From Mycobacteriales bacterium (GTDB taxonomy: Bacteria; Actinomycetota; Actinomycetes; DATLTS01), in contig DATLTS010000052.1 of assembly GCA_035533475.1 (NCBI GenBank), positions 1 to 32,177 of the forward strand: a stretch of 32,177 bases of DNA. Reading direction: 5' to 3'. Position 1 is the first letter of the stretch. Every line of letters begins with the position of its first letter. Under the pieces are notes generated by a model. It searched no databases, was not told the DNA's origin, and worked only from the letters and a program-made list of their open reading frames with translations. Position numbers and translations under genes: made by a program. Of this stretch, positions 5,065-11,965 are shown piece by piece.

Positions 5065-5877
5065 ATGTCACTCAGCTTTGGTATCAGCACCAAGGGACGG
5101 GCTGAGCTGACGGCTGCTCTGGCGGGTAGTCGTCGATTCTTGACGCCCGCTTCCGTAGCGGCGGATCTCGGGATCGACAGGGCTGCCGCCGCGAGAAAGC
5201 TTGCCGCCTGGGCCAGTCAAGGTTGGGTGCGACGGGTGCGCCGTGGGCTGTACATCGGGGTACCGGTGGATGCGACGAACCCGGCGGCCTGGTCCGAGGA
5301 CGCGCTGGTCGTGGCGACGGAGGTGTGGTCGCCGTGCTATTTCACTGGCTGGACCGCGGCCAACCATTGGGGGCTGACCGAGCAAACCTTTCGCACCACG
5401 GTGCTCAAGACGACGATGCGCGTCCGGTCCGACCGCGCGCGGTTGCTCGATCACGACTACCTGCTGGCGCACGCTCCGGAAGGCTCGATGAGTTGGGGGG
5501 TCAAGAGCCAGTGGTCGGCGGAGATACGGCTGCCGTTCGCCGACCCGGCTCGAACGGTCATCGACGCTCTCGATACACCGAAGCTGGCCGGCGGCATCCG
5601 GCACGTCAGCGAGATCCTCGATGCCTTTCTCGACGAGCACGACTCGATGCAGCTGGTGGATTACGGGGATCGACTCGGTAATGGGGCGGTCTTCAAGCGC
5701 TTGGGATATTTACTCGACGCGCTGGTTCGGGATCTGCCTGCGGTGACCAGCGCCTGCCAGGAACGGATCACGGCAGGGGTCTCACCGCTGGATCCCGACG
5801 GCCCTTCCGCCGGGCGTCGGGTGATGCGCTGGGGCTTGCGGATTAACGTCACGATCAGCCCGGTGGAGCCGTCGTGA
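5065..5877 (+). CDS. AbiEi-type antitoxin / winged-helix regulator, without AbiEii partner
   Basis: A 270-residue protein. Residues about 24-67 form a winged helix (RFLTPASVAADLGIDRAAAARKL, then VRRVRRGLYIGVP), followed by the AbiEi core: EVWSPCYFTGWTAANHWGLTEQTF, LPFADPARTVIDALD, and the end VMRWGLRINVTISP. AbiEi proteins are antitoxins of type IV TA systems: they repress the operon and counter the AbiEii nucleotidyltransferase, an abortive-infection factor. The toxin normally follows at once, but here no nucleotidyltransferase is present; a truncated ATPase is next. The gene seems intact. The 170 bp upstream are AT-richer than their surroundings and may hold the promoter. Confidence 0.85.
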   Translation: MSLSFGISTKGRAELTAALAGSRRFLTPASVAADLGIDRAAAARKLAAWASQGWVRRVRRGLYIGVPVDATNPAAWSEDALVVATEVWSPCYFTGWTAANHWGLTEQTFRTTVLKTTMRVRSDRARLLDHDYLLAHAPEGSMSWGVKSQWSAEIRLPFADPARTVIDALDTPKLAGGIRHVSEILDAFLDEHDSMQLVDYGDRLGNGAVFKRLGYLLDALVRDLPAVTSACQERITAGVSPLDPDGPSAGRRVMRWGLRINVTISPVEPS

Positions 5878-5955
5878 TTCCCCGCCGCGAGTAAGGACCA
5901 GGCGCGGGACGCAGCGGCAGGCGTCCGGAAACCTGCGCGCTCCGTCTCGCGCAAC

Positions 5956-7185
5956 GTGTCTTCACTGCAGCAGGAGACGGTCACCGCTCAGGAGGCAGAG
6001 GCGACCGCCCTACGAGGTCGTGAAATGGGAGAGGCGCATGTTCGCCAGGCCGAGGAATATCTCATCGCCACGATGCGTGCCGCCGAGGCGGCACAGAGGG
6101 CGGCGGACGCTGCAGCTGCGTTTCGCGAGTTCGCTGCGCATGCCGCCACGGCGCTCGATGGACGCCTCAAGGCCGTCGCTGGAGATCCTCACCTGTTGCT
6201 GCAGAGTTTGTCCGACCTGGCGGCATTCACGGCGAGTCAGGTCGACGAAAACAGGCAACGAATCGCGTCCCTCACCGGCCGGCTCGAGGGCGTCACCGCA
6301 TCGGCCCGTCAGCTTGAAACAGCCGGAGCCACTTGTCCGGTGTGCCGGCGCACTATGTCCGAGGAGGTGGCCGCTCGCGCCGAGCACGCGCATGCCCAAG
6401 AAACCTCGGCGTTGGACGTCGAGTGTGCTGGCGTCGAAGCCTCGTTGGCGGAGATACATCAATTCCTGGCTGCTGTCAGAGGCCTGCGGGCGTCCGCCCC
6501 GCCCTTGCCGCCGCCGACTCCGGAACGCGCGCTCAGCAAGAGCGACCTCGACGCGGCTCGCGGCGCGCATGAGGCAGCTCGCAACGAGCTAATGGTGTCC
6601 GTTGAAGAACTTGGTGTCGCAAGAGCGACGCGGACACAGCTCACCGGACTTCTTGCCGATGCCAAAGAGCAGGAAGTCGATGCGGCTGCCTCACTCAAGG
6701 CGCATCGGCGCGAAGCCGCAGCCGCCATCGCCGTCGACTCCATGCGCGCGACCGCGAACGCCATCTTGCAGGAGCGAATCGACCCTCTGGTTGCAGAGGT
6801 TCGCAGTCGCTGGAAGAAGGTCCACGCCGATCGTGGGTCTTTGACGCTGCTTCCAGATGGGCGAATGGTTCTTGTCCGCGGCGAGCACACGATCGAATTC
6901 GCACAATTCTCAAGCGGTGAGAAGGTCATCGCGCTTCTCGAAGCCCGCATGATCGTCCTCGCGGCCTCTACCCGTGCATCGTTTCTCTGGCTCGACGAGC
7001 CAATGGAGCACCTCGATCCGATCAGCAGGCGTGCAGTGGCTTCGTTACTGGCGACAGGGACAGCTAGCCAAGGCATTCGAAAGATTGTGGTCACCACATA
7101 CGAGGAGGAACTCGCGAGAACCTTCGCGGCGTCCGAGGACGCACAGCTCACCTGGGTCGACGCAGCGGCGGCTGCCAGCGAATAG
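5956..7185 (+). CDS. C-terminal part of an SbcC/Rad50-like zinc-hook ATPase; N-terminal Walker A lobe missing
   Basis: A 409-residue reading frame with the C-terminal part of an SMC/Rad50/SbcC ATPase. There is an Ala-rich coiled coil (about 1-125), a zinc-hook CPVC motif at C127-C130, a returning coiled coil (about 135-280), then the ABC signature FSSGEK (318-323), Walker B FLWLDEP (343-349), and D-loop EHLD (351-354). The expected N-terminal lobe with GxxGxGKS and Q-loop is absent, and the complete AbiEi gene occupies that place, so an ATPase from this frame alone should not work. The frame continues open upstream to the AbiEi stop at 5875. The GTG start is nominal. Probably a truncated relic of a defence or repair ATPase. 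Confidence 0.7.
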   Translation: MSSLQQETVTAQEAEATALRGREMGEAHVRQAEEYLIATMRAAEAAQRAADAAAAFREFAAHAATALDGRLKAVAGDPHLLLQSLSDLAAFTASQVDENRQRIASLTGRLEGVTASARQLETAGATCPVCRRTMSEEVAARAEHAHAQETSALDVECAGVEASLAEIHQFLAAVRGLRASAPPLPPPTPERALSKSDLDAARGAHEAARNELMVSVEELGVARATRTQLTGLLADAKEQEVDAAASLKAHRREAAAAIAVDSMRATANAILQERIDPLVAEVRSRWKKVHADRGSLTLLPDGRMVLVRGEHTIEFAQFSSGEKVIALLEARMIVLAASTRASFLWLDEPMEHLDPISRRAVASLLATGTASQGIRKIVVTTYEEELARTFAASEDAQLTWVDAAAAASE

Positions 7186-7221: not shown

Positions 7222-7743
7222 TCAGAGTGCCTCAAGCGTCGCTGCGATGGTGCTAGTCAGCAGGAACAAATCGAAGTTTCCAGCGTCGCCGGGATCGAAC
7301 GGGACAAAGCCGAGACGGTCGCGCCACCACCGGCGCGCGACGTCGTTCAGGGCCGTCAGCACGACCGCCCTGAGAGCGGCGGATTCGTTGAGCTCCACGG
7401 CGGTGGCCAGGATGTGTTTGACGAGCTCCGTCCCAAGGCCCACACCCTCGTGCCGCTCATCCACCGCGAGCCGACCAATGAGCAGCGCTGGAATGGGGTC
7501 CGGCGCCCGCTTCGCGAGAGCTGCTGGAGCTTCCGAAACACCGATACCGGTCATCGATAGCGTCGCGTACGCGACGACCTTGTAACTCGGGTCAGCAATA
7601 ACCCAAGTTGCGGCTGTGTCTGCTCGGCGGCTCTGGCCGGCGAATTTCCGCAACCAGTCGGCGTAAGCAGGCTCAGCGCAGACGAAGTCGCGGCGGTCGT
7701 GTAGAGCGGGATCAAGGAGGCAGGGGCGGCGGTACTCAGTCAA
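7222..7743 (-). CDS. GNAT acetyltransferase toxin, TacT/AtaT-like
   Basis: A 173-residue GNAT-fold protein. The acetyl-CoA-binding region is IGRLAVDERHEGVGLGTELVKHIL (about 90-113), and the final motif is NDVARRWWRDRLGFVPF. Such toxins acetylate charged tRNAs and block translation; the paired DUF1778 antitoxin lies directly upstream and overlaps this start by 8 bp. In characterised TacT/AtaT toxins a Tyr before xxxGF is catalytic; here that position reads Trp-Trp, so activity or mechanism may differ. It ends 36 bp from the convergent ATPase fragment. Confidence 0.87.
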   Translation of the reverse strand: MTEYRRPCLLDPALHDRRDFVCAEPAYADWLRKFAGQSRRADTAATWVIADPSYKVVAYATLSMTGIGVSEAPAALAKRAPDPIPALLIGRLAVDERHEGVGLGTELVKHILATAVELNESAALRAVVLTALNDVARRWWRDRLGFVPFDPGDAGNFDLFLLTSTIAATLEAL

Positions 7744-8011
7744 GCCAGCTGAACTTCCGCGGGCGGCTCAGCGCGGATGCTAGCCGTGCGTTCACCGTCG
7801 CTGGCTCGGCGAGGGCACGCGCGAAGGCAGCCGCAGCCGCCGGCTGCAATGCGATCATGGTTCGCTCGGCGAGGATCTCCTCGGCCCTGATCTGTGCAGC
7901 CTGGAGAACGAAGGCCGACAGGTTGAGGTGCGCAGCAGCCGCCGCCTGCTCCAGGGCACGCTTTGACGCCGGGTCGACTCGAACCTGCAGCCGCTCGTCC
8001 TTCATATTCAT
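7736..8011 (-). CDS. DUF1778 (TacA-like) ribbon-helix-helix antitoxin
   Basis: A 91-residue protein. KDERLQVRVDPASKRALEQAA begins a ribbon-helix-helix fold with LNLSAFVLQAAQIRAEEIL as the second helix, matching DUF1778 antitoxins that accompany GNAT toxins. The C-terminal tail (PRKFSWLD) is the expected toxin-binding segment. ATG at 8011 is preferred over far longer upstream readings because TTGACA and an inverted repeat sit just before it. It should repress its own promoter together with the toxin. Confidence 0.87.
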   Translation of the reverse strand: MNMKDERLQVRVDPASKRALEQAAAAAHLNLSAFVLQAAQIRAEEILAERTMIALQPAAAAAFARALAEPATVNARLASALSRPRKFSWLD

Positions 8012-8046: not shown

Positions 8047-8150
8047 GCCCCTCGCGCTCCGGCCCGGACCGGTGCTTTCGTCGGCGCCCTGGCTTACGAC
8101 ATCCCGGGTGAGCGGCCTTTCCCCACGCGAGACTCAGGAGGGAGTCAGAC

Positions 8151-8399
8151 ATGGCAGACGTAGTGGACATCAACAGAGACATCAGCTTCACGATCGACGG
8201 CGAGCCGTTCTCGACGCGAGACCGTCGCCAGACGGCAGCCGCCCTCCTTGGCTTGGCTGGGCTTTCGCCGTCCATGTACGACCTGGGAGAGCTCCACGGG
8301 CACAGCCCACAGCCCTGCCGGTTCAAGGACTCAGACGAGGTGGAGATCCACCCAGGAGGCAGATTCGCCTCGATCCGGCAGAAGGCCGACGTCGCCTAA
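8151..8399 (+). CDS. Ubiquitin-like beta-grasp protein of the multiubiquitin type
   Basis: An 82-residue protein. ISFTIDGEPFSTRDRRQTAAALLGLAGLSP, then YDLGELHG and FKDSDEVEIHPGGRFASIR, follow the beta-grasp pattern of bacterial multiubiquitin domains (fxIDgxxf, LLxLAGlxPxxydL, Vdlxxxgxexf). These ubiquitin-like modifiers occur in operons with E1-, E2- and JAB-like proteins. Only one domain is present, with no C-terminal Gly-Gly. GGAGGGA 8 nt upstream supports the ATG. The partner gene starts at once (TAATG overlap) but is broken, and no E1 or JAB gene is in the window. Family assignment is from memory of the pattern, not a search. Confidence 0.72.
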   Translation: MADVVDINRDISFTIDGEPFSTRDRRQTAAALLGLAGLSPSMYDLGELHGHSPQPCRFKDSDEVEIHPGGRFASIRQKADVA

Positions 8400-8519
8400 T
8401 GGCGGGTCCGGTCGAGACGCTCCTCGCCGATGTAGCTGCTGCCGGATCGCCCGGGCGTGGTGCGGCAGCAGTTAGTCGTATACGAGGTGGAACCCGTCAC
8501 AGGCGGCAGGGTCGGGTAG
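8399..8519 (+). pseudogene. Broken partner gene of the ubiquitin-like protein (frameshifted, truncated)
   Basis: ATG at 8399 overlaps the previous stop. The frame reads MAGPVETLLADVAAAGSPG, then a +1 frameshift after 8455 in a CCCGGGCG run restores VVRQQLVVYEVEPVTGGRVG before a stop at 8517. The restored peptide reads like the start of the protein that commonly follows multiubiquitin genes in actinobacteria (E2-like), but this is inference. The same restored frame stays open beyond the stop to 8801 (including WQTVPTTVQPGTVVIDDGFG and WALSDDAVALQTCDRAGAY) without a motif I recognise. The gene is almost surely inactive unless there is a sequencing error. Confidence 0.5.
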
Positions 8520-8807
8520 TCCCAACCGCAGTGGCAGACCGTACCGACCACCGTCCAGCCGGGGACCGTCGTTATAGACGACGGATTCGGCGAGGGGCGA
8601 GTGATCGCGAACGGCATCTCGGTTCGATCCTGGGCGCTCTCGGACGACGCGGTCGCCCTTCAGACGTGCGATCGGGCGGGGGCTTATCGGCCGATAGTGG
8701 TGGTGGTCGTGTCGGTGCTGAGGGAGGTCCCCCCACGCGTGGCGGGGGGATCCGGGGGGCCTGTCTGCGCCGCCCTTGCTCCACTCCGTCGCACACAGTA
8801 GGAAGGA

Positions 8808-8978
8808 ATGATGGGAAAACAGGCAGCCGTCGCGCTTTACGTGGTAGCGCTGGTAGCCGTCGTGGTCGGCGTGGACGTCCTGTTCTTCCGGCATCACTTC
8901 TGGGAGCGGCTGATGGTAAACGTCGGGGTTGTCCTGGTGTTTGCCGCGTTCTATTTGAGGTTCCTGAAGCGTCCATGA
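8808..8978 (+). CDS. Small two-helix membrane protein, unknown function
   Basis: A 56-residue protein beginning MMGKQAAV. Two hydrophobic segments (about residues 6-26 and 37-51) are separated by the polar FRHHFWERL turn, and the end is basic (LRFLKRP), so both termini may face the cytoplasm. AGGAAGGA stands directly before the two ATGs; the second ATG (8811) is equally possible. It lies just after the broken ubiquitin-associated gene. The sense and clean hydrophobic pattern argue for a real gene; I know no function. Confidence 0.65.
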   Translation: MMGKQAAVALYVVALVAVVVGVDVLFFRHHFWERLMVNVGVVLVFAAFYLRFLKRP

Positions 8979-10492: not shown

Positions 10493-10624
10493 CCGGCGTC
10501 GTCGGTGGGTCGACCAAAGCGCCGGAGGGCGATTATCGGGCGCTCCGAGTGGCGGGGTAGACGCACCGCTAGCCAGCGATAGAGGTCGGGTCACCCGTGC
10601 CAGTGGAGCTGCATCCCAACCTGG

Positions 10625-10650
10625 TACCGTCACCTGCTGTGAGCACACAG
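10625..10650 (+). promoter_or_regulatory. -10 box and inverted repeat at RHH antitoxin start
   Basis: TACCGT (10625-10630) lies 8 nt before the GTG at 10639. An inverted repeat, CTGTG-AGCA-CACAG (10637-10650), begins at the start codon. Both suit a leaderless autoregulated TA promoter; no clear -35 box is seen. Confidence 0.45.
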
Positions 10651-10878
10651 ATCGCCGTCCGCTTGCCCGATGAGCTTGTGGCCTACGTCGATGAGGCGGT
10701 GGCGTCCGGTCGGGTCAAGAGCCGCGCCGAATTGGTCACCCGACTCATCGAACGTGACGCTCGCCGGCAGCGGGCTGAAGAGGATCTGCAACGGCTGGCC
10801 GAGCAAGGGGCGCTCGACGATGACGAGCTGCTGGCCATCGTCAAATCCGCGTCGGCGACCGCGCTTCCGATTGATTGA
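10639..10878 (+). CDS. Ribbon-helix-helix antitoxin paired with MazF
   Basis: A 79-residue protein. STQIAVRLPDELVAYVDEAV then VKSRAELVTRLIERDARR is a ribbon-helix-helix domain; the tail LAEQGALDDDELLAIVKSA is acidic, as in antitoxins that block MazF. The frame is open upstream to 10597, but GTG at 10639 is preferred for its distance from the -10 box and because the RHH strand then begins at residue 3. The stop overlaps the toxin ATG by one base (TGATG). Confidence 0.88.
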   Translation: MSTQIAVRLPDELVAYVDEAVASGRVKSRAELVTRLIERDARRQRAEEDLQRLAEQGALDDDELLAIVKSASATALPID

Positions 10879-11177
10879 TGCGACCCATCCATTGGGCCAT
10901 GCTGGACAAGCGTCGGCCGGTGCTCGTCCTCACGCGCGAGATCATGGTCGGGCGGATGTCCACGGTCGCCGTGGCTCCCATAACGTCCACGGTTCATGAG
11001 ATCGCGACCGAGATCCTCGTCGGCAGGCCCAACGGGTTGGCTCAGGACTCGGCCATCAAGTGTGATCAGATCGTCAGCATCCCCGTTGATCAGCTCCATG
11101 AGCGCTGCGGGTGGCTGTTGGATGCGCAGGAACTGGCCCTGCACGACGCCATCCAAGCCGCCTTCGACCTCGTGTGA
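10878..11177 (+). CDS. MazF/PemK-like endoribonuclease toxin
   Basis: A 99-residue MazF-fold protein. KRRPVLVLTREIMVG, VAVAPITSTVHEI, NGLAQDSAIKCDQIVSIPVDQL and LHDAIQAAFDL follow the family order, including the conserved Pro after RR and the S/T-x-I-x-C-D-Q strand. MazF toxins cut single-stranded mRNA at short sequences. A TTG three bases before the ATG at 10878 gives a one-residue-longer form. It is coupled to the RHH antitoxin rather than to an AbrB-fold MazE, which is common in actinobacteria. Confidence 0.92.
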   Translation: MRPIHWAMLDKRRPVLVLTREIMVGRMSTVAVAPITSTVHEIATEILVGRPNGLAQDSAIKCDQIVSIPVDQLHERCGWLLDAQELALHDAIQAAFDLV

Positions 11178-11347: not shown

Positions 11348-11965
11348 TTACGGAATCACAGAGCCTTGCCGGGATAGCGGCAGGTTCGGCATCTCGCTCA
11401 GCGCTTTCTTGTGGATCACTTTCGCGAAATATCCTGCGCCGAACTCGAGGCACAGCAGCACATACCAGAACTGCCCGGCGTCCGTCATACGATCAAGCCG
11501 CACGTCACTCATGGCCTTCTTCATGGACAGCTTGGCGAAGTATCCGGCTCCGAAGTAGACACACAGCAAGACATACCAGGACTGCTCGGCGTTTGTCTGC
11601 TGCCCGAAGCCGGCCTCGCTCAGTGCCTTCTTGACGGGCACTTTCGCCAGGTACCCGGATCCGAAGGCGATGCATTCGACCACATACCAGATTCGTTCCC
11701 ACTCGGTCATCTCGGCCAGCCCGACATCGCTGAGCGCCTTCTTGGTGGGGATCTTCGCGAAGTATCCGACTCCGAAGTCGATGCACTGGAGGACATACCA
11801 GAACTGCTCGGCGCCCGTAAGTGGAAACGCGCGCTGGCGCGGAACGGGAGCCACAGGCTGGGAGTGGGCGGGCGCAATCGGCGCCGGGGGGCTGGGTTGA
11901 GCGCCTTCCGGGATTGGGGATCCTGCCCGCTCCGCCGGAAGTCCAGAACTGTCTCCGGACGTCAC
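11348..11965 (-). CDS. Four-repeat WYVL..KKALS protein, unknown function
   Basis: A 205-residue protein. A Pro-rich N-terminal region (about 1-50) precedes four tandem units of 37 residues (about 53-89, 90-126, 127-163, 164-196) with the consensus E-Q-x-W-Y-V-L-x-C-I-x-F-G-x-G-Y-F-A-K, then K-K-A-L-S. Each unit has one Cys, an invariant WYV and a KKA turn; units are as hydrophobic as a re-entrant or amphipathic helix but are broken by Gly and Lys. I recall this repeat in other actinobacterial hypothetical proteins but know no function. GTG start with AGGAGGAG 2 to 9 nt upstream is well supported. The repeat is visible in DNA with a 111-bp period. Confidence 0.82.
   Translation of the reverse strand: MTSGDSSGLPAERAGSPIPEGAQPSPPAPIAPAHSQPVAPVPRQRAFPLTGAEQFWYVLQCIDFGVGYFAKIPTKKALSDVGLAEMTEWERIWYVVECIAFGSGYLAKVPVKKALSEAGFGQQTNAEQSWYVLLCVYFGAGYFAKLSMKKAMSDVRLDRMTDAGQFWYVLLCLEFGAGYFAKVIHKKALSEMPNLPLSRQGSVIP

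Follow-up and report, generated by a model that had tools for sequence, protein, structure and literature searches.

Does a solitary gene for a small ubiquitin-like protein (Ubl) belong to a working conjugation system, or is it what remains of one? This question is raised by a locus in the draft genome of a Mycobacteriales bacterium (assembly GCA_035533475.1), of which positions 1 to 32,177 of contig DATLTS010000052.1, read on the forward strand and referred to here as the window, were analyzed. The original prediction, made from the letters of the window alone, described an intact multiubiquitin-type gene overlapping a decaying partner, and proposed either a dismantled conjugation system or a modifier now using enzymes encoded elsewhere. 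The analysis favored the former. The intact class to which the locus belongs is already known, the locus being a degraded member of it and not a new system, and we put at roughly 0.87 the probability that it is a degenerate bub-type operon (row 6e of Iyer et al. 2006, PMC1779556) in which the Ubl is most likely an inert relic.

The first element is an 82-codon open reading frame (ORF) on the forward strand, running from ATG at 8151 to TAA at 8397-8399 and preceded by a Shine-Dalgarno-like AGGAGGG, read directly at 8136-8142. Its sequence and modeled structure identify the apparently intact 82-aa product as a BubA-type multi-ubiquitin beta-grasp protein. The expected match to the multiubiquitin profile was obtained, Multi_ubiq (PF14452) being the sole Pfam match, although at 17.4 bits (E 0.0051) it lay under the curated cut-off of 24.5 bits; the two closest relatives likewise scored slightly under it (23.2 and 22.3 bits). 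Genome searches returned closest relatives with 54-61% identity, including 58% in genome G010 and 54% in G300 (locus L026), and weaker relatives in G081 and G146. A family profile that includes the window Ubl itself matched this protein at E 2.3e-32, and a profile of 19 family members, when compared with the PDB, matched the multi-ubiquitin proteins 8u38 and 9d5b (E 0.0025-0.0028). All nine columns that are invariant across 21 relatives are retained. With the AlphaFold model (predicted local distance difference test, pLDDT, 81.6), the nine best Foldseek matches in the PDB were all bacterial multi-ubiquitin or BubA chains, the matches including 8u38, 9ea8 (BubA bound to BubCD), 9d5b and 9cd2. 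Profile, relatives and fold thus place the protein with multi-ubiquitin/BubA, as predicted, and not in an unrelated family. Its single Ubl domain does not indicate truncation, because 9 of the 21 relatives also have one by the family profile (the other 12 have two), and for the same reason more than one domain is no requirement of the family as sampled. The protein ends in ADVA, not GG. No sigma-70-type promoter was found upstream of the gene, which has little meaning at such a GC content.

The gene order of the intact class was established from 22 independent relative loci, comprising L021-L039 (19 named loci, among them those of G146 and G300), G010, G081 and the divergent G012. A first contig scan with the window Ubl alone gave no loci, and a scan with an alignment of the partner gave 19. 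At all 22, overlapping or near-contiguous genes followed in the same order: bubA, encoding the Ubl; bubB, encoding an E2-like protein without a cysteine; and bubCD, encoding a JAB protease fused to an E1. The partner protein is 116-126 aa long in the relatives, lacks an invariant cysteine and has an invariant PHW.H motif, which is missing from the divergent G012 copy. It belongs to no Pfam family, and its model from L026 (pLDDT 88.5) gave frequent but weak matches to TSG101 UEV and UFC1 (E > 0.5; template modeling score <= 0.52). The third gene encodes a JAB-E1 fusion of ~490 aa, one tested example of which matched Citrobacter BubCD over residues 13-346 (E 8.9e-16). Of the 19 named loci, 15 have an ORF with an HExxH motif close to the operon, and those ORFs that were read resemble ImmA/IrrE peptidases, some with a helix-turn-helix (HTH) domain. 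Among 394 genomes of the class, the Ubl was present in six, and no relative in the sampled class kept bubA without an adjoining bubCD, although one bubCD was interrupted. In G081 (L012 5976-7274) a transposase gene lies inside bubCD and splits the JAB-E1 gene, which shows decay in progress and is a second, independent case of it. A search of viral contigs by means of the partner alignment gave no relatives. An actinobacterial operon of greater divergence was also observed (L052 1480-2084 and G012:C22:8107-9525), in which the Ubl ends in PVS, the partner lacks PPHW.H and the JAB-E1 is 43% identical to a Protofrankia protein.

In the window, the second gene of this order is broken. The stop codon of the Ubl overlaps the partner ATG at 8399 (TAATG, 8397-8401, as first noted), and this overlap with the bubB start is shared with the intact operons, as is the conserved order. 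The bubB-like pseudogene covers 8399-8519 on the forward strand, with ~39 of ~120 codons recognizable: the reading frame begins MAGPVETLLADVAAAGSP, must change by one base within 8448-8460 to keep to the register of the family, continues GVVRQQLVVYEVEPVTGGRVG and ends with TAG at 8517-8519 directly after VEPVTGGRVG, which bears out the frame shift and stop originally described. A frameshift-tolerant profile alignment of 8400-8810 against the E2-like partner family scored 84, with 8402-8516 as its secure part; because this far exceeds the scores of 100 shuffles (36 +/- 5, maximum 49), the frame shift is not a reading artefact. Full-length homologues extend ~80 aa beyond the window stop and do not end at it. 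The bubB gene is therefore truncated by a frame shift plus an early stop, with only its first third left. The original description needs correcting in that the partner seen to be decaying is the E2-like gene of the system. The bubB remnant may extend to 8555 (compare QTVPTTV with QTVETGV), but this continuation was not secure and was excluded. Programmed frameshifting was also rejected, as no slippery run was seen and the product would in any case end at 39 residues.

Beyond the stop, the restored frame had been noted to remain open for another 280 bp. The frame is literally open (8520-8798, forward strand), but it is uninformative, because 35% of 285-nt reads on the forward strand and 33% on the reverse strand of this GC-rich window are stop-free, and 98 genomes gave no relatives of its translation. 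The length of the frame is due to chance; no recognizable bubB or bubCD lies in it, it is not part of the partner, and it was not counted as a gene. An E1 or JAB remnant was considered for the same segment, which contains VIDDG-like words, but was rejected, the bubCD profile scoring no higher than shuffles; a six-frame search of the window for bubCD gave no matches. The following gene (8808-8978, forward strand), which encodes a 56-aa two-helix membrane protein, had been raised as a possible member of the system. Its homologues in G053 (62% identical) and G035 (51%) occur in genomes that gave no match to the Ubl and have no BubCD, and it was therefore judged an independent gene and rejected as a subunit of the Ubl system.

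Enzymes encoded elsewhere were sought in the whole genome, a draft of 68 contigs that is 98.7% complete. BubCD was found neither in the window nor in the rest of the genome. No intact bubB homologue was found in the whole genome with the partner alignment, a search that is blind to the remnant itself and so can rule out no more than a second copy that is intact. The same bubB and BubCD queries recovered the real genes in control genomes at E 1e-40 to 1e-167. The only E1 and JAB genes elsewhere in the genome were a MoeZ-type E1-rhodanese (MoeB-rhodanese; C15:52408, ThiF E 1.9e-84), a divergent protein giving a second ThiF match (C15:81582) and a JAB at C20:50130 (E 5.2e-31), which adjoins its own Ubl (ending AVAGG) and a cysteine synthase and is, from this arrangement, the predicted Mec of a CysO/Mec/CysM set.

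The locus is made up of a Ubl of the BubA family and a broken bubB, with bubCD absent, and all 22 relatives have the full triple, in keeping with the dismantled conjugation system originally suggested. Sequence comparison indicates that it is descended from an intact Bub, or row 6e, operon whose enzymes have since been lost. If the intact operon acts as the literature describes for Bub and other cascades of the ubiquitin-like type, BubCD would activate the C-terminus of BubA, BubB would help to transfer BubA to its targets, and maturation or removal of BubA would fall to the JAB domain. Of these genes, only bubA survives here as an intact ORF. Because bubB is truncated and bubCD is gone, BubA can most likely be neither activated nor conjugated, and the loss of its enzymes is presumed to be recent.

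Several observations weigh against this reading. The Ubl itself bears no signs of decay, having all of its invariant columns and a good ribosome-binding site, and its intactness could reflect either a recent loss of the enzymes or a retained function; divergence from the nearest relative is too large for a useful ratio of nonsynonymous to synonymous substitution rates (dN/dS). In a draft of 68 contigs, one carrying bubCD may also be missing, although this is unlikely at the completeness reported, and the frame shift taken alone could be an assembly error. An operon that is really intact and only misassembled is nevertheless extremely improbable. Of the two lesions, one is a shift of a single base at a GC-rich spot in a draft genome, but such an error leaves unexplained the stop, the missing two thirds of bubB (80 codons) and the absence of the whole of bubCD. 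The contig is continuous into the genes for the membrane protein, which is unrelated, and for an aldo-keto reductase.

That a single-domain BubA has been selected without its cascade, whether as a stand-alone protein or as one conjugated by a sulfur-pathway E1, is considered very unlikely overall. A working modifier served by enzymes encoded elsewhere, as the original prediction allowed, for example by the MoeZ-type E1 or the Mec JAB of cysteine synthesis, would agree with the intact ORF and with the presence of an E1-rhodanese, a divergent ThiF protein and a JAB in the genome. No positive support for it was obtained, however, and it is very improbable, given that the E1 is a MoeB-rhodanese, that the JAB sits in a CysO/Mec/CysM arrangement with its own Ubl, that the Ubl lacks a terminal GG, and that the best match to a BubCD query was limited to the generic ThiF core of the MoeZ-like protein (E 4.5e-6), the same level as is seen in genomes without Bub. 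A conjugation-independent role, in which the Ubl is kept because it binds or oligomerizes, for instance, or serves as a decoy that counters another system, is very doubtful. Retention of the ORF with all invariant residues speaks for it, as do the titles of the solved structures 9d5b and 9d59, in which related multi-ubiquitin proteins are filamentous; yet these filament-forming relatives are multi-domain, unlike the window Ubl, and, apart from the interrupted gene, bubA is always accompanied by an adjoining bubCD in the sampled class.

The degenerate operon is best described by comparison with known systems. Row 6e of PMC1779556, listed for Frankia sp. among the actinobacteria and including a solo Ubl domain in one species, combines a polyUbl with an inactive E2/RWD-like protein and a JAB-E1 fusion, and the standalone domain in the same operon position as the partner is described there as E2/RWD-like with its catalytic cysteine absent. 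Relative to these operons, what the window retains is the Ubl together with one third, the first, of the E2-like gene; the JAB-E1 is lost, and no treble-clef metal-binding gene was seen. A second comparison is with Bub (bacterial ubiquitination-like) operons (Gong 2025; Ye 2026; both cited in PMC13373217); in that last paper, CapH+CapP regulators are reported beside Bub operons and protection against phage is described as not demonstrated. The HExxH genes near the relatives of the window locus, some with HTH, resemble CapH+CapP, the relatives' JAB-E1 matches Citrobacter BubCD (9ea4, E 9e-16) and the window Ubl model matches the BubA domain at 155-229 (9ea8), whereas the window itself lacks BubCD and an adjoining regulator pair and has a broken BubB. 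Bil and type II cyclic oligonucleotide-based antiphage signaling systems (CBASS) share the common Ubl/E2/E1/JAB logic in bacteria, but the best structural matches of the window Ubl are Bub or multi-ubiquitin proteins, even though 8u38 was labeled Ubl-BilA by its depositors. The locus further differs from both systems in having no CD-NTase and in its E2 and E1 families.

The locus clearly illustrates how an operon of the bacterial ubiquitin-like kind is lost, in line with sporadic, mobile systems such as the rarity of the Ubl in the class would suggest, and an isolated Multi_ubiq gene does not imply that conjugation still works. The actinobacterial branch with a single domain, which comprises the Ubl, a Cys-less E2-like protein with conserved PPHW.H and a JAB-E1, is diverse in sequence and would be useful for testing how Cys-less E2-like proteins act in Bub.

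The surroundings of the locus look like a variable region, a setting in which a mobile system could well be lost. Immediately before the Ubl gene, on the reverse strand (7222-8011), a TacA1-like antitoxin gene is followed by one for a GNAT acetyltransferase, likely forming a toxin-antitoxin pair. Further upstream (5065-7185, forward strand) lies a gene for an AbiEi-like antitoxin, followed by one for a Rad50/SMC-like protein (409 aa) that carries a zinc-hook motif and resembles a C-terminal fragment. Downstream, the aldo-keto reductase gene is followed further on by overlapping genes for a ribbon-helix-helix (RHH) antitoxin and a PemK/MazF toxin (10597-11177, forward strand). Without a meaningful Pfam match, a 205-aa ORF on the reverse strand at 11348-11965 contains four repeats of ~43 aa (WYVL.C..FG.GYFAK...KKA.S).
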